Positions 4,051 to 52,252 of a DNA stretch of 64,000 bases are shown piece after piece. This stretch comes from Streptomyces luteolifulvus (GTDB taxonomy: Bacteria; Actinomycetota; Actinomycetes; Streptomycetales; Streptomycetaceae): assembly GCF_008806595.1 (NCBI RefSeq), contig NZ_VZRB01000004.1:248001-312000 (forward strand), given 5' to 3'. Every line of letters starts with the position of its first letter. Position 1 is the first letter of the stretch. Below the pieces are notes generated by a model that made no database searches, was not told the origin of the DNA, and saw nothing but the letters and a program-made list of their open reading frames with translations. The position numbers were made by a program, and so were the translations under genes.

Positions 4051-4144
4051 TCCGGCGGACACCGATCCTGCGGATTCCGCGCTGGATCTCGCCACTGACC
4101 TCCGTCGTTCCGTACCGTACGGGGCGACGGAGGAGGGTGATCAC

Positions 4145-5782
4145 GTGGCGGGACTGCGCCTTGGACCACTGCTGAGATACGCCGACGGGTCGACCGCGAC
4201 CGTCTGGGTCGAGGCGAGCCGCCCCTGCACCGCCGAGGTGCGCTGCCCGGACGGCGCCCAGGGCTCGGCCACCACCTTCCAGGTCGCGGGCCACCACTAC
4301 GCCCTGGTGCCGGTGAGCGGCCTCGCACCGGGCACGGCACGGTCGTACGAGGTGTTCCTCGACGGCACCCGTGTGTGGCCGCTGCCGGACTCGCCCCTCC
4401 CGCCGTCGGTGATCCGCACCCCGGGCGAGGGCGACGGCCTGCGGGTGGCCTTCGGCTCCTGCCGCTGGGCGGCGGCGCCCGCCGACGGGCACGACCCGGT
4501 GGGCCCGGACGCCCTGGACACGCTGGCGGCCCGGATCGCGGCCGACCCGGAGGGCGAACGGCCCGACGTCCTGCTGCTGCTCGGCGACCAGGTGTACGCC
4601 GACGAGACCTCCGAGGCCACCCAGCGCTGGCTGGCCGCCCGCCGCGATCTGAGCGACCCGCCCGGCAAGGAGGTCGCCGACTACGAGGAGTACACCCGCC
4701 TCTACTACGAATCGTGGCTCGACCCCGAGGTCCGCTGGCTGCTGTCCACCGTCCCCAGCTGCATGATCTTCGACGACCACGATGTCATCGACGACTGGAA
4801 CACCTCCGCCTCCTGGCTCGCCGACATGCGCGCCACCCCGTGGTGGCGGGAGCGGCTGCTGAGCGGGCTGATGTCGTACTGGGTGCACCAGCACCTCGGC
4901 AACCTCTCCCCCGCCGAACTCTCCGCCGACCCGCTCTACGCGGCCGTCCGCGAGACCCCGGACGGCACGGACGCCGTACGCGCCTTCGCCTGCCGGGCCG
5001 ACTCCGACCCGGCCTCGGTGCGCTGGAGCTACCGACGCGACTTCGGCCGCGTACGCCTGCTGATGGTGGACACCCGGGCGGCCCGCGTCCTCGACGAGGA
5101 AAGCCGCGCGATGCTCGACCCAGGCGAGGCGGACTGGCTGCGCGAACAGGCGCTGGACGCGCCCGGAACCTGCGACCACCTCCTCATCGGCACCTCGCTG
5201 CCCTGGCTGCTGCCGCACCTGGTGCACGACGCCGAGGTGTGGAACGCGGCTCTGTGCCGGGGCGAGAAGGGCGCTCGCTGGGCGCGGTTCGGGGAGGATC
5301 TGCGGCGCGGGGCCGATCTGGAGCACTGGGCGGCGTTCCCGGCATCGTTCGCCGCGCTCACCGAGCTGATCGCCGAGGCCGGTTCGGGGCCCGGGGCACC
5401 GGCGACGGTGTGCGTACTCTCCGGGGACGTCCATCACGCGTACATCGCCGAGCCGCGGTGGCCGGCCCGGACACCGGACGCCCGGGTGGTCCAGCTGACC
5501 TGCTCCCCCGTCCACAACTCCATCCCGCTGTCGATACGGCTCGGCTTCCGCTTCGGCTGGAGCGCGGTGGCCCGCGCCCTCGGCCGGAGCTTCGCCCGTC
5601 ATGCGCGCAGTCCGCGCCCGCCCGTGAAATGGCGCAAGACCGGCGGGCCTTGGTTCGGCAATCAGCTCATGACGCTGACGCTCAGCGGCCGTTCGGCCCG
5701 GCTGCGGCTCGAACAGGCGCAAGCGGCGGACGGCGGTGGGACGCGGCTGACGACCGTGACGGAGTCCGAACTCGCCCCGTAA
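4145..5782 (+). CDS. PhoD-like alkaline phosphatase / metallophosphoesterase
   Basis: 545 residues from the GTG at 4145, with GGAGGG eight bases upstream. An N-terminal beta-sandwich (residues 1-90) is typical of PhoD proteins. The metal-binding core follows: FGSCRW (about 100), LLLGDQVYADE (about 145), IFDDHDVIDDWN (about 210), LIGTSLPWLLP (about 347) and LSGDVHHAYIAE (about 425). No export signal is visible, so this is likely a cytoplasmic family member, unlike classical Tat-exported PhoD. It should hydrolyse phosphomono- or diesters with Fe3+/Ca2+-type metal centres. Confidence 0.87.
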   Translation: MAGLRLGPLLRYADGSTATVWVEASRPCTAEVRCPDGAQGSATTFQVAGHHYALVPVSGLAPGTARSYEVFLDGTRVWPLPDSPLPPSVIRTPGEGDGLRVAFGSCRWAAAPADGHDPVGPDALDTLAARIAADPEGERPDVLLLLGDQVYADETSEATQRWLAARRDLSDPPGKEVADYEEYTRLYYESWLDPEVRWLLSTVPSCMIFDDHDVIDDWNTSASWLADMRATPWWRERLLSGLMSYWVHQHLGNLSPAELSADPLYAAVRETPDGTDAVRAFACRADSDPASVRWSYRRDFGRVRLLMVDTRAARVLDEESRAMLDPGEADWLREQALDAPGTCDHLLIGTSLPWLLPHLVHDAEVWNAALCRGEKGARWARFGEDLRRGADLEHWAAFPASFAALTELIAEAGSGPGAPATVCVLSGDVHHAYIAEPRWPARTPDARVVQLTCSPVHNSIPLSIRLGFRFGWSAVARALGRSFARHARSPRPPVKWRKTGGPWFGNQLMTLTLSGRSARLRLEQAQAADGGGTRLTTVTESELAP

Positions 5783-38023: not shown

Positions 38024-38680
38024 CTAGGGCGGCGTCATCTCCCACATCAGCAGCTCCGCCCCCGTCACTCCCACCGCGTCCACGTCCTTCGCGTCCGTGA
38101 TCCGCGCCGAGTCCCCGGCGCCCAGCTGCTCCCCGTCCAGCCGCACTTCACCCCGTACGACATGCACGTAGACGTACGGGCCGTCCGGCACGGCTGTCCG
38201 CTCCCCCACCGCCAGCCGCCGTACATGGAGCATCGCGCCCGCCTCCGGGACGGCGTACGGCGTCTGGTCGGCGATCCCGCGGACGATCTCGTACGACGGT
38301 TCGCCACCCGGTGTCACCGGTGCCAGCCACATCTGGACGAAGGTCAGCGGGGCGGTCCCGCCGTTGCGCTCCACATGGCGCACACCGGCCGCGGAGCTCA
38401 GCCGCTGCACGTCCCCGGGGCGCACGAGCGTCTTGTGCCCCCTCGAGTCCTGGTGGGTCAGCTCACCCTCGACCACCCAGGTCACGATCTCCGTGTGGCT
38501 GTGGGGATGCTCGTCGAAGCCGGCGCCGGGTTCGAGCCGCTCCTCGTTGCAGGCCAGCACCGCGCCGAAGCGGAGGTTGCCGGGGTCGTAATGCGGACCG
38601 AAGGAGAAGGCGTGCCAGGACAGGATTCCGGCCTCAAGGTCGCCGCCGCGGTAGCGCTCGGTGGCGCGCCGTACATCCAT
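38024..38680 (-). CDS. Pirin-family cupin protein
   Basis: 218 residues from the ATG at 38678-38680. Two cupin halves; the N-terminal half has the metal ligands in DEHPHSHTEIVTWVVEG, HQDSRGH and the Glu/His of QRLSSAAGVRHVERN. Pirin signature FGPHYDPGNLRFGAVLACNE. Bacterial pirins bind Fe, act as quercetinase-like dioxygenases in some cases, and interact with pyruvate dehydrogenase E1 in Serratia; aceE is 6 kb away but not linked in an operon. It ends 40 bases from the convergent serine hydrolase. Confidence 0.92.
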   Translation of the reverse strand: MDVRRATERYRGGDLEAGILSWHAFSFGPHYDPGNLRFGAVLACNEERLEPGAGFDEHPHSHTEIVTWVVEGELTHQDSRGHKTLVRPGDVQRLSSAAGVRHVERNGGTAPLTFVQMWLAPVTPGGEPSYEIVRGIADQTPYAVPEAGAMLHVRRLAVGERTAVPDGPYVYVHVVRGEVRLDGEQLGAGDSARITDAKDVDAVGVTGAELLMWEMTPP

Positions 38681-38716
38681 CACGCCCACCACGGTAGCCC
38701 CGCCGGAATGCGGTAA

Positions 38717-38923
38717 GGGCCCACCAACGCCGAGTGTCCCCACGCGCCGGCCGCGAGGGAGCCGCAGGGGGCGCGCCGGTGTCGAGAGGCCGAACGCGCG
38801 GAGGCGCGCAGCGCTGAGCACGATCGGCCACTCGACACCGGCTGAGGCGCCCCCGAAGGCGACCGAGCCGTCCAGCACAGCCGACCGAGCCGTCCAGCAC
38901 AACCCCTGCAGGCGACCGAGCCA
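38717..38923 (+). repeat. Structured intergenic repeat, copy A
   Basis: The element runs from GGGCCCACCAACGCC (38717) to GCGACCGAGCC (to 38870), and the end block GACCGAGCC recurs at 38883 and 38914. The left arm GGGGGCGC-GCCGGTGTCGAG (38767-38786) pairs with CTCGACACCGGC-TGAG-GCGCCCCC (38831-38854): 20 pairs with a 4-base bulge. Inside, GCCGA pairs with TCGGC and GCGC-GCA-GCGC makes the tip. A second copy lies at 51074-51226. No coding sense or transposase. It lies between the pirin start and fasR. Confidence 0.85.
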
Positions 38924-38947
38924 TCCGGATAAGGCAGTCTTGTCCCC

Positions 38948-40153
38948 GTGCCCCATCCCGAAGCCCGTCCTCCCGAAGCCGCAGCGCCCGACGTCCACCC
39001 GCACTCCGCGACCCTGAGGCGGCTGGAGAAGTCGTCCGGAAGTCTCGCCGCGCACGCCATCGCGCGCATGGACGAGACCCTGCCGTGGTACCGGGCCATG
39101 CCCCCGGAGAACCGTTCCTGGATCGGCCTGGTCGCCCAGGCGGGCATCGCCGCGTTCACCGAGTGGTTCCGGCACCCGGACGCCCCCCAGGCCATTTCCA
39201 CCGATGTCTTCGGCACCGCTCCGCGTGAGCTGACCCGGGCCATCACCCTGCGCCAGACCGTCGAGATGGTGCGTACCACCATCGAGGTCATGGAGTCCGC
39301 GATCGACGAGGTCGCGGCCCCGGGCGACGAGGGCGTGCTGCGCGAGGCCCTGCTCGTGTACGCCCGGGAGATCGCCTTCGCCACCGCCCAGGTGTACGCC
39401 CAGGCCGCCGAGGCACGCGGTGCCTGGGACGCGCGTCTGGAGTCGCTGGTCGTCAACGCCGTGCTCAGCGGCGAGGCCGACGAGGGGGCCGTCAGCCGGG
39501 CCGCGGCCCTCGGCTGGAATTCGCCCGAGCATGTGTGCGTGGTGCTGGGCACCGCCCCGGACGGTGACTCGGAGTTGACCGTCGAGGCCATCCGGCGGGC
39601 CGCCCGACACGCCAAACTGCAGGTCCTCACCGGAGTGCTCGGGGACCGGCTCGTCGTCATCGCGGGCGGCAGCGACAACCCGCTCGGGGTGGCCAAGTCG
39701 CTGATCGGACCGTATGCCGCCGGGCCCGTGGTGGCGGGCCCCGTCGTGCCCGATCTGCTCGCGGCGACCCGGTCCGCGCAGGCCGCGGCGGCCGGGCTCA
39801 AGGCGTGTTCTGCCTGGCAGGACGCCCCGCGGCCGGTGCTGGCGGACGATCTGCTGCCGGAGCGCGCGATCGCCGGAGACCCCTCGGCCCGTGAACAGCT
39901 GGTGGAGGAGATCTACAGACCGCTGGAGGAGGCGGGGTCCGCGCTCTTGGAGACGCTCTCCGTCTATCTGGAGCAGGCGAGCAGTCTCGAAGGGGCCGCA
40001 CGGATGCTTTTCGTGCATCCCAACACCGTGCGCTACCGGCTTCGACGTGTGACTGACGTCACCGGTTGGTCGCCGTCTGATGTACGTTCAGCGTTCACGC
40101 TGCGTATCGCGCTGATCCTGGGGCGTCTGGCCGAGGGAGATCTTCAGCTCTAG
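38948..40153 (+). CDS. fasR: FasR, PucR-type activator of the fatty-acid synthase operon
   Basis: 401 residues from the GTG at 38948. The central region (about 130-330) is a divergent GGDEF-like/PucR regulatory domain. The C-terminus carries a PucR-type helix-turn-helix: LETLSVYLEQASSLEGAARM then FVHPNTVRYRLRRVTDVTGW. It lies directly upstream of fabD in the same direction. The orthologue in S. coelicolor (SCO2386) was shown by Arabolaza and colleagues to activate the fabD-fabH-acpP-fabF promoter and to be needed for normal lipid synthesis. Probably senses a long-chain acyl product; no ligand residues can be named from sequence. Confidence 0.93.
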   Translation: MPHPEARPPEAAAPDVHPHSATLRRLEKSSGSLAAHAIARMDETLPWYRAMPPENRSWIGLVAQAGIAAFTEWFRHPDAPQAISTDVFGTAPRELTRAITLRQTVEMVRTTIEVMESAIDEVAAPGDEGVLREALLVYAREIAFATAQVYAQAAEARGAWDARLESLVVNAVLSGEADEGAVSRAAALGWNSPEHVCVVLGTAPDGDSELTVEAIRRAARHAKLQVLTGVLGDRLVVIAGGSDNPLGVAKSLIGPYAAGPVVAGPVVPDLLAATRSAQAAAAGLKACSAWQDAPRPVLADDLLPERAIAGDPSAREQLVEEIYRPLEEAGSALLETLSVYLEQASSLEGAARMLFVHPNTVRYRLRRVTDVTGWSPSDVRSAFTLRIALILGRLAEGDLQL

Positions 40154-50269: not shown

Positions 50270-50376
50270 TGGAGGGCGGGGGGTAGGCGGGCGATGGTGA
50301 GGGCGGGGCGCGGGAGGCCCCCCGGGCGAGGGCGCGGTGGGGGCTGGGCGGGGCGCGGGAGGCCCCCCGGGCGAGG
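50270..50376. repeat. Short GC-rich repeats before the 54-bp array
   Basis: Two copies of a ~45-base unit containing GGGGCGCGGGAGGCCCCCCG and GGGCGAGGGCGCGGTGGGGG occur back to back (about 50306 and 50349). The unit is hairpin-prone and no gene is apparent. Confidence 0.55.
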
Positions 50377-50646
50377 GCGCGGTGGGGGCACGGTGGGTCC
50401 GGCGAAGGCACGGTGAGGGCCCGGGCCAGGGCGCGGTGGGGGCACGGTGGGTCCGGCGAAGGCACGGTGAGGGCCGGGGCCAGGGCGCGGTGGGGGCACG
50501 GTGGGTCCGGCGAAGGCACGGTGAGGGCCGGGGCCAGGGCGCGGTGGGGGCACGGTGGGTCCGGCGAAGGCACGGTGAGGGCCCGGGCGAGGGCGCGGTG
50601 GGGGCACGGTGGGTCCGGCGAAGGCACGGTGAGGGCCCGGGCGAGG
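50377..50646. repeat. Five-copy 54-bp tandem repeat
   Basis: A unit beginning GCGCGGTGGGGGCACGGTGG and continuing GTCCGGCGAAGGCACGGTGA recurs at 50377, 50431, 50485, 50539 and 50593, exactly every 54 bases, with only C/G changes near GGGCC(C/G)GGGC. The next unit at 50647 is truncated. 54 is a multiple of three, so all frames stay open, but codon use is that of random GC-rich DNA and no start with a ribosome site exists. Degenerate GGCGAGGGCACGGTGAGG fragments continue to about 51070. Confidence 0.9.
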
Positions 50647-51073
50647 GCGCGGTGGGGGCCAGCGAGGGCGCGGTGGGGGCCGGCGAGGCCACGGCGAGGG
50701 CCCGAGCGAGGCACGGTGAGGTCTCCTGGGCGAGGCCACGGGGGGCTCTGGGTGAGGGCGCGGTATGGCCCGGCGAGGCCAACGCGAGGGCCCGAGCGCG
50801 GGCACGGTGAGGTCTCGGGCGGGGCACGGTGAGGCCCGGCGAGGCCTGGCTAGACACGGCGAGGGCACGGTGAGGCCCGGCGAGGCTAGTGAGGGCGCGG
50901 TGACGGCCCGGGCCAGGGCACGGTGAGAGCACGCGAGGCTCGGCTGGACACGGCGAGGGCACGGCGAGGCCCGGCGACGGTGCGGTGAGGCCCCGGGCCA
51001 GGGCGCGGGCGAAGCCCGGCTAGGGCACGCGAGGCCCGGCTAGACACGGTGAGGCCCAGTGAAGGCACGGTGA
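50647..51073. other. Degenerate continuation of the repeat array
   Basis: About 430 bases built from scrambled variants of CACGGTGAGGCCCGGCGAGG and GGGCCAGGGCGCGG. No gene, terminator or promoter is recognised. It ends where structured repeat copy B begins. Confidence 0.55.
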
Positions 51074-51226
51074 GGGCCCACCAACGCCCGCTTTCCCCAC
51101 GCGTCGGCCGCGAGGGAGCCGAAGGGGCGCGCCGGTGTCGAGAGGCCGAACGCGCGGAGGCCCGAAGGGCTGAGCACGATCGGCGTCTCGACACCGGCTG
51201 AGGCGCCCCGTAGGCGACCGAGCCAT
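51074..51226 (+). repeat. Structured intergenic repeat, copy B
   Basis: It matches copy A (38717-38871) over about 150 bases in the same orientation, from GGGCCCACCAACGCC to GCGACCGAGCCAT. The left arm GGGGCGCGCCGGTGTCGAG (51124-51142) pairs with CTCGACACCGGC-TGAG-GCGCCCC (51187-51209). The 44-base interior has GCCGA/TCGGC and a tip GCCC-GAA-GGGC. Compared with copy A the tip pair 51162/51168 is C-G instead of G-C. It ends four bases before the stop codon of the convergent reductase gene. Confidence 0.85.
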
Positions 51227-51229
51227 ATG

Positions 51230-52252
51230 TCACAGCTTGACGATCATCTTGCCCGTGTTGTCGCCGCGCAGAACCCCGAGGAAAGCCTCCAGGTTGTTCT
51301 CGATGCCCTCGACCACGGTCTCGCGGTACTTCAGCTCGCCGGAGCGGATCCACGGACCGACCTCGGCGACGAACTGCGGCTGGAGGTCGTAGTGGTCGCC
51401 GACGAGGAAGCCCTCGATCCGGCCGCGGGTCTGGATGAGACGGGTGAGGTTCTTCGGGCCGGGGGCTGGCTCGGTGTTGTTGTAGACGGAGATCATGCCG
51501 CAGACGGCGATCCGGCCGCCCTGGTTGAGCTGACCGATCGCGGCCTCCAGGTGGTCGCCGCCGACGTTGTCGAAGTAGACGTCCACACCGTCCGGAGCGG
51601 CGTCGCGCAGCTGCTCGCTCACCGGGCCGTTCTTGTAGTTGAAGGCGGCGTCGAAGCCGTACTCCTCCACCAGCAGCTTGACCTTCTCGTCGGACCCGGC
51701 GGACCCGATGACCCGCGAGGCGCCCTTGAGCCTGGCGATCTGGCCGACCTGGCTGCCCACGGCACCGGCGGCGCCGGACACGAAGACGCTGTCGCCCTCC
51801 TTGAAGGAGGCGGTGCGCAGGAGTCCGGCGTAGGCGGTGAGGCCGGTCATGCCGAGGACGCCGAGGTAGGTCGACAGGGGCGCGGCATCGGGGTCGACCT
51901 TGACCGCATGCTGGGCGTCGATCGTGGCGTACTCGCGCCAGCCGCCGAAGTGCAGCACATGGTCGCCGGGCGCCATGCCCTCCGCGCCGGAGGCGATGAC
52001 CTCGCCGACCGCGCCGCCCTGCATGGCCTTGCCCAGCTCGAAGGGGGCGGCGTACGACTTGGCGGCGCTCATCCGGCCGCGCATGTACGGGTCGACGGAG
52101 AGGTACTTGTTCCGCACCAGGACCTCACCGGGGCCGGGCTGCCGGATCTCCGCGTCGACCAGGGCGAAGTCGTCGGGCTTCGGCCAGCCGACCGGGCGGG
52201 ACAGGAGGTGCCACTCGCGGCTGACGGCGGGGAGTGCGGGGGTGTCGGACAT
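51230..52252 (-). CDS. NADP-dependent medium-chain reductase (quinone/enone type)
   Basis: 340 residues from the ATG at 52250-52252, with GAGGAAG upstream. Zinc-independent MDR of the leukotriene B4 12-hydroxydehydrogenase/curcumin-reductase group: SVDPYMRGRM, LGVLGMTGLTAYAGLL, the nucleotide site SGAAGAVGSQVGQIARLKGA, and DVYFDNVGGDHLEAAIGQL. It reduces double bonds of enones or quinones with NADPH. It is divergent from MarR, which probably represses it and itself through the intergenic palindrome at 52285. Confidence 0.92.
   Translation of the reverse strand: MSDTPALPAVSREWHLLSRPVGWPKPDDFALVDAEIRQPGPGEVLVRNKYLSVDPYMRGRMSAAKSYAAPFELGKAMQGGAVGEVIASGAEGMAPGDHVLHFGGWREYATIDAQHAVKVDPDAAPLSTYLGVLGMTGLTAYAGLLRTASFKEGDSVFVSGAAGAVGSQVGQIARLKGASRVIGSAGSDEKVKLLVEEYGFDAAFNYKNGPVSEQLRDAAPDGVDVYFDNVGGDHLEAAIGQLNQGGRIAVCGMISVYNNTEPAPGPKNLTRLIQTRGRIEGFLVGDHYDLQPQFVAEVGPWIRSGELKYRETVVEGIENNLEAFLGVLRGDNTGKMIVKL

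Follow-up and report, generated by a model that had tools for sequence, protein, structure and literature searches.

A family of probably mobile palindromic hairpins in Streptomyces with a fold constrained on one strand

Two long hairpins in the window, the 64,000-nucleotide stretch of Streptomyces luteolifulvus DNA analysed here, belong to a family that we think is probably one of non-autonomous mobile palindromic elements of Streptomyces and a second genus of its family, possibly Kitasatospora, with the fold of one strand under constraint. Copies of this hairpin are dispersed among genomes, the same sites are filled in some species and empty in others, including sites within reading frames, copies decay by losing their centre, and the fold of one strand is constrained.

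The hairpin and its conserved strand

The earlier note described a repeat of about 155 bp at 38717 and 51074, in the same orientation and with each copy forming one long hairpin; orientation and fold are as it described them. When copy A is used to search the 9.03-Mb genome by BLAST, copy B aligns at 91% identity over query positions 1–153 of 155 (E 1.4e-53). Minimum free energies are -100.2 kcal/mol for copy A and -97.1 kcal/mol for copy B, with folding z values of -5.85 and -5.46, and for each copy none of 200 dinucleotide shuffles folded equally well. The hairpin proper is shorter than the repeat, and the two copies and their surroundings are arranged as follows.

38024–38692, − strand: pirin-family gene to the left of copy A, divergent (Pfam PF02678; home-made gene caller)
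38717–38752, + strand: optional 5′ extension of copy A, long form (GGGCCCACCAACGCC...), alignable to copy B and to further long-form copies
38753–38869, + strand: copy A, hairpin proper (covariance model R1, 106.8 bits)
38806–38812, + strand: copy A, tip pair G-C around a GNA triloop (C-G in copy B)
38850–38926, + strand: right end (GGCGACCGAGCC) in three direct repeats, at and past the end of copy A
38948–40153, + strand: PucR-type regulator to the right of copy A, on the element's strand (Pfam PF13556, PF17853)
51074–51109, + strand: optional 5′ extension of copy B (BLAST and alignment)
51110–51224, + strand: copy B, hairpin proper (R1, 120.6 bits)
51162–51168, + strand: copy B, tip pair C-G
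51230–52252, − strand: zinc-binding oxidoreductase adjoining copy B (Pfam PF16884, PF00107)

The GTG start of the PucR-type regulator at 38948 is our reading, the gene caller having put it at 39068. The stop codon of the oxidoreductase lies 5 nt from the copy B hairpin, and the region after copy A, up to 38923, consists of extra copies of the element's right end. An additional right end also follows the element in L038. Between a beta-lactamase-fold gene and copy B, the window holds a degenerate GC-rich tandem array (50301–51079) with a 54-nt unit, 5.4 copies of it at 98%, merging into periods of 43–94 nt.

In nearly all full matches the hairpin measures 111–128 nt; a 5′ extension may precede it, and a short A-rich tail follows on the 3′ side. 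The long form, to which both window copies belong, has about 36 nt more on its 5′ side; many copies are without this extension (for example the short forms L004, L006 and L047). The consensus begins with GCGAGTGAGCC... and ends with ...GGCGAACCGAGCC and the A-rich tail, although these ends are not placed to single-base precision. Drawn up by eye, the short form reads GCGAGNGAGCCGNAGGGGCGC-GCCGGTGTCGAG-variable stem-CGANCGCGCGGAGGC-S-CGNAG-S in its 5′ half and GYYGAGCACGNTCG-variable stem-CTCGACACCGGC-bulge of 4 to 6 nt-GCGCCCCNNAGGCGANCGAGCC in its 3′ half, followed by the tail. Its near-invariant core is CGCGCGGAGGC...GAGCACG, and the rod is broken by purine loops (GA/GA and GNA/GNA types), by a GGA/GA loop and, at the tip, by a GNA loop. 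The sequence of the TGAG bulge, which the two window copies had suggested to be conserved, varies among copies. Copies of the second genus have the same ends, core and tail and differ in the tip and middle stem; in 40 of them, tail positions 4–9 past the hairpin are 69% A, and such a tail is visible in many Streptomyces copies.

Several copies have further features. Just inside the middle stem there is a 1x1 mismatch in which, by eye, both bases tend to be identical (A•A, G•G or T•T), which may be subfamily history. Within two copies (L052, 1501–1654; L043, 1501–1618) lies a second palindromic sequence of the CTCCCCCA...TCGA...GGGGGAG type; the hairpin appears to be targeted by another family of repeats. 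In the window's own genome, C11:26643–26927 has one full and one 5′ partial copy in tandem, and in L037 two further partial left halves lie upstream of a full copy.

Between copies A and B the tip pair differs on both sides, from G38806-C38812 to C51162-G51168, and selection on structure, which had been proposed from this change, is borne out in larger alignments. In an alignment of 88 rows fitted to R1 (87 copies, with that of L088 counted on both strands), 97.3% of cells pair and two-sided changes are found at 20 of 39 pairs, in 229 cells; the shuffled mean is 61.6 cells, none of 500 shuffles is as high, and slid versions reach at most 38. The tip pair itself is C-G in 72 of these 88 rows and G-C in 16. 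A MAFFT alignment of 32 copies, whose structure was derived by RNAalifold from the same rows, has two-sided changes at 17 of 39 pairs (78 cells versus 24.5), and 40 copies from the second genus have them at 16 of 29 pairs.

The mismatches carry information about the strand. Were only double-stranded DNA of importance, a transition would be as likely to give G•T as A•C, whichever arm it struck. In Streptomyces, G•T occurs 63 times and A•C 14 times (102 rows, tip and outermost helix excluded; 3 of 105 rows, minus-strand matches of copies already present, were dropped), and in the second genus the counts are 32 and 4 (40 copies, outside the tip); the binomial p values, 1.4e-8 and 1.9e-6, are calculated over cells that are not independent. 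Counted by site and pair, the numbers are 36 versus 7 (p 9e-6). By this excess it is the + strand whose single-stranded fold is conserved, and as read from these patterns both RNA and single-stranded DNA fit. The earlier suggestion of a family of small structured RNAs would be compatible with a fold conserved on one strand in this way.

Distribution and insertion sites

The covariance model R1 (115 positions, 39 pairs, built from 32 copies) finds 7 full-length copies above 90 bits in the window's genome (9.03 Mb, 105 contigs), and the same scan gives weaker, partial and opposite-strand matches. BLAST with copy A matches 92 of 199 Streptomyces genomes at E ≤ 1e-3, and 38 of these, hereafter the strong-hit genomes, at E ≤ 1e-15; the highest match count, 7, is reached by G117, G183 and the window's own genome. 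Across the family, R1 at E ≤ 1e-6 matches 82 of 297 genomes; 54 are of the window's genus, 27 of the second genus and 1 of a third, out of 17 genera covered. Across the phylum, at E ≤ 1e-3, it matches 6 of 296 genomes, five of them in the window's genus. The sixth is a weak match of 38 bits in another actinobacterial family (L079, 1501–1614), with a related core, CGCAGGCGCACAGCGCCGAGGACG, and a core-like tip, a hint that the motif may predate the family Streptomycetaceae. A pattern scan of named genomes found at least 115 stretches, and among the matches listed all are from Streptomyces except one 'Actinobacteria bacterium' record.

Searches of plasmid and phage records by blastn and of IMG/VR contigs with the exact pattern gave no match. 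Against 4227 Rfam families at the gathering score, the element is unmatched and the window yields only a tRNA; permissive Rfam scans of copy A and L117 returned sub-threshold matches only, many of them to microRNA hairpin models. No description of this hairpin family appears among the matches listed from open-licence PubMed Central papers, and the portions of PMC2635572 and PMC4681348 that we consulted contain nothing on this element.

A non-autonomous mobile hairpin was one of the options raised by the earlier note, and it gains direct support from empty sites, three of which lie in protein genes compared with several species. The egtC gene of S. muensis (L165), whose product has a PDB match to EgtC (4zfj), is 120 nt longer than its counterparts: the same coding context is without the insert in 24 of 24 aligned loci (30 were fetched). 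The hen1 gene of S. spiralis (L153) likewise has an extra 120 nt, absent in all 15 aligned loci of 25, and a GDSL-hydrolase gene of the window's genome (L007) has an extra 117 nt, absent in all 5 aligned loci of 9. Two further inserts, each of 126 nt, were compared with a single locus: one in a PARG-domain gene of S. bluensis (L090), empty in L165, and one in a glycosyltransferase gene in L188, empty in L156. All five insert lengths (117–126 nt) are multiples of 3, and most copies leave two of their three sense frames open from end to end, with a TGA in the third. Because the gene caller finds in-frame copies more easily, this regularity reflects tolerance of the insert and not an insertion preference. 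From the alignments, the GDSL hydrolase, EgtC and Hen1 appear to carry about 40 residues derived from a mobile element. In an AlphaFold2 model of the insert-bearing EgtC, the insert is only tentatively placed, between helices 141–156 and 195–213 at pLDDT below 50, since much of the N-terminal half is low too.

In total 11 copies were called inside genes: 6 are read through in sense, 4 end the frame within the element (one of these, L129, adjoins masked bases) and 1 is antisense. Besides the five genes compared with empty sites, read-through copies are found in L098 (MurJ), L099 (LuxR type) and L134, whose site is common to L054 and L059. The element is gene-less, as the earlier note said, but its description as intergenic fails for these copies; equally, the family as a whole does not lie inside genes or insertion sequences.

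The window has an empty site of its own.

4053–4148, + strand: empty site (span between aligned flanks), with the element at the orthologous place in L149, L160 and L199

This site resembles a ribosome-binding site, and at its filled counterparts the A-rich tail lies inside the inserted DNA (in L149, AGAGAAAGGGC). A 6-nt GGGYGA repeat is possible there; no constant target-site duplication was seen at three in-gene sites or in the better four of six other alignments, the remaining two being too poor to judge. In the 65 loci that served as empty sites, BLAST queries with four copies turned up no further element. At the site of copy B, 20 of 21 other orthologous loci are without the element, with spacers that align too poorly to place the junction; L245 has a diverged copy (75–78% identity) about 0.6 kb upstream in the orthologous locus, which the pattern missed. 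Judged by flanks, L119, L127, L170 and L195 have a copy at copy B's site. Because the filled state is rare at aligned sites, gain is favoured over loss, and these comparisons indicate that the element is, or was, mobile.

Once inserted, copies continue to change. At 25 sites common to at least two species, 134 pairs vary, 80 of them with at least two different Watson-Crick pairs. These two-sided changes at fixed sites may reflect selection in place; selection for mobility alone does not explain them, and gene conversion may. Identity is 85% within a site and 79% between sites, and 24 of 75 copies have their nearest relative at their own site, versus 2 expected. Copies in two places on one contig of S. 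lanatus (L115 and L197) are 99.2% identical, and two copies of S. prunicolor (L144 and L193) 97.4%. Both S. lanatus sites seem by their flanks to be common to other species, which makes gene conversion likelier than a fresh jump; the site cluster of L115 is, however, mixed. Copies also decay through loss of the hairpin centre: the C51 copy of the window's genome has lost its centre and kept its two ends, at a place where L091, L114 and L186 have a full copy. In S. cyaneus (L088, 7060–7174), the centre is inverted relative to the ends, so R1 scores both strands nearly alike (90.2 and 80.9 bits); this copy is the product of an inversion between the arms.

Context, orientation and the route of spread

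We sorted 112 Streptomyces copies from 121 sources into 59 independent sites; L009 had no pattern match, and we left out copies less than 300 nt from the end of a locus and those lacking a called neighbour on one side. Both neighbours are on the element's strand at 24 sites and on the opposite strand at 6, while 10 sites are divergent, 9 convergent, 9 inside a gene on the same strand and 1 inside a gene on the opposite strand. The 40 tandem or in-gene sites are thus sense in 33 cases and antisense in 7 (p 4e-5), each site cluster being entered under its prevailing arrangement; some of the clusters are mixed and possibly joined by repeated flanks. Where a sense gene lies downstream (34 independent sites), its called start is 0–50 nt past the element in 24 and overlaps it in 2. 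In the second genus, 22 independent sites, with a 13-member cluster likely joined by repeated flanks counted once, give 8 sense and 8 antisense tandem arrangements. Sense orientation is therefore not needed for the element as such. Replication strand was rejected as the cause of the Streptomyces bias: 46 hand-picked BLAST hits in 19 nearly complete chromosomes, with oriC assumed to be mid-chromosome, divide into 22 leading and 24 lagging. No shared function was seen among the named neighbouring genes.

The sense bias and the closeness to start codons are what would be expected of a host-selected mRNA element, a leader or trailer hairpin bound or cut by a host factor such as RNase III (AbsB in Streptomyces) and tuning mRNA decay or translation, whose copies spread once and were kept for their function on the adjoining gene. 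The two-sided changes at fixed orthologous sites fit such an element, and it has a precedent in the NEMIS hairpins, which are proposed RNase III substrates in the part of PMC2229807 that we cite. However, the even split in the second genus, the copies within reading frames, the lack of a common theme among named neighbours and the absence of the element from every aligned egtC, hen1 and GDSL locus (24, 15 and 5) all speak against it, and we regard this explanation as possible but rather unlikely.

We favour instead the reading of the family as mobile palindromes, and propose the following route. The folded + strand, as a transcript or as single-stranded DNA, would be recognised by an enzyme supplied in trans, and copies would spread in this way. 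Selection for recognition by this enzyme would keep the rod-like hairpin, its purine-rich internal loops and its near-invariant core. Inserted copies would then ride in leaders, trailers and reading frames, mostly in sense in Streptomyces, and may be partly homogenised by gene conversion.

Two candidates for an obligatory helper were rejected. Y1_Tnp (IS200/IS605, RAYT) is found in 64 of 199 Streptomyces genomes and RVT_1 in 79, and among the 38 strong-hit genomes 19 are without Y1, 18 without RVT_1 and 12 without both, including G117 and G032, each with several matches. The Y1 transposase retains a weak enrichment (19 of 38 strong-hit genomes versus 45 of 161 others, Fisher p 0.012); that of the RVT_1 reverse transcriptase is not clear (p 0.096), and both may perhaps arise through genome size.

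The Y1 enrichment is consistent with a REP-like product of IS200/IS605-type (Y1, RAYT) transposases acting on single-stranded DNA, as is the hairpin's C(GNA)G triloop, a stable DNA loop. Yet half of the strong-hit genomes do without Y1_Tnp, among them G117 and G183, there is no GTAG tag, the hairpin has about 3–6 times the length of a REP, and no replication-strand bias accompanies it, which makes such an origin distinctly improbable. Less probable again, in our estimate, is a SINE-like element of bacteria: a small structured RNA, A-rich in its 3′ tail, from which a reverse transcriptase provided in trans would make new DNA copies. Such a route would explain the one-strand fold, the tail within the insert and the variable 5′ end, and also why no constant target duplication is seen and why Streptomyces transcripts receive the element in sense.

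The elements could also be palindromes of DNA only, with arms kept complementary by template switching or inter-arm gene conversion and no selected single-stranded fold. The centre deletion in C51 is of the kind that palindromes would show, the inverted centre of L088 is a DNA event between arms, and identity reaches 97–99% between some copies from separate sites in one genome. Repair, though, is strand-neutral and does not account for G•T over A•C at 63:14 and 32:4; it would also erase mismatched internal loops, which are conserved and, by eye, change two-sidedly from GA/GA to GAA/GAA in L033 and L037. We hold this explanation to be slightly weaker than the SINE-like one. Least probable is an intrinsic terminator or the transcript-end element of the earlier note: in its favour 9 of 59 independent sites lie between convergent genes, but 10 are divergent and 10 inside genes, many copies lie just before a start codon or in reading frames, and the 3′ tail, in 40 second-genus copies and many Streptomyces copies, is A-rich with no T run.

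Comparison with known palindromic elements

Small palindromic elements in frame in protein genes are best known from Rickettsia; to our knowledge their mobiliser is unknown and the way they move is unsolved. In the sections of PMC2229807 and PMC10969869 that we draw on, they are 105–150 bp long, form a long stem-loop and occur both between genes and in frame in conserved protein genes. The hairpins described here resemble them, as those sections portray them, in size and in their long stem-loop (111–128 nt), and in in-frame insertion, which was found in five genes, two of the five being compared with one other species only. For R. conorii, the cited part of PMC3733652 gives CGTC at one end, a feature not seen in the Streptomycetaceae hairpins, whose ends are not fixed to the base. 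Compared by description, these hairpins also differ in being GC-rich, in having an A-rich 3′ tail and in belonging to free-living Streptomycetaceae, and covariation and strand asymmetry are measured for them.

The NEMIS or Correia elements of Neisseria, as described in the excerpt of PMC2229807, are hairpin repeats of 107–155 bp adjoining genes, with transcripts proposed to be RNase III substrates; they carry terminal inverted repeats, end in TA and duplicate their target site. Like those, our hairpins are repeats of similar size beside genes; unlike those so described, they have neither TA ends nor a constant duplication. REPs share with them the character of dispersed palindromes and possibly of single-strand substrates, but in the passage of PMC3733652 they are 20–40 bp long and end in GTAG or CGTC, whereas the hairpins here are 111–128 nt long, have no such tag and occur in 19 of 38 strong-hit genomes without Y1_Tnp. 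MITEs are likewise short, gene-less and dispersed; the present elements differ from them in having no clear terminal inverted repeat with a constant target-site duplication, no TA at both ends, and one strand of the hairpin conserved as a fold.

At least one tag, end or duplication of the Rickettsia elements, NEMIS and REPs is thus missing from these hairpins, and we therefore treat them as a separate, new family. By analogy, its mode of working appears to be like that of the Rickettsia palindromic elements and NEMIS. The family offers filled and empty sites, a structure supported by covariation, a defined functional strand and a conserved core, and it does so in large, free-living, cultivable and genetically tractable bacteria, where movement and upkeep of the fold are directly testable.
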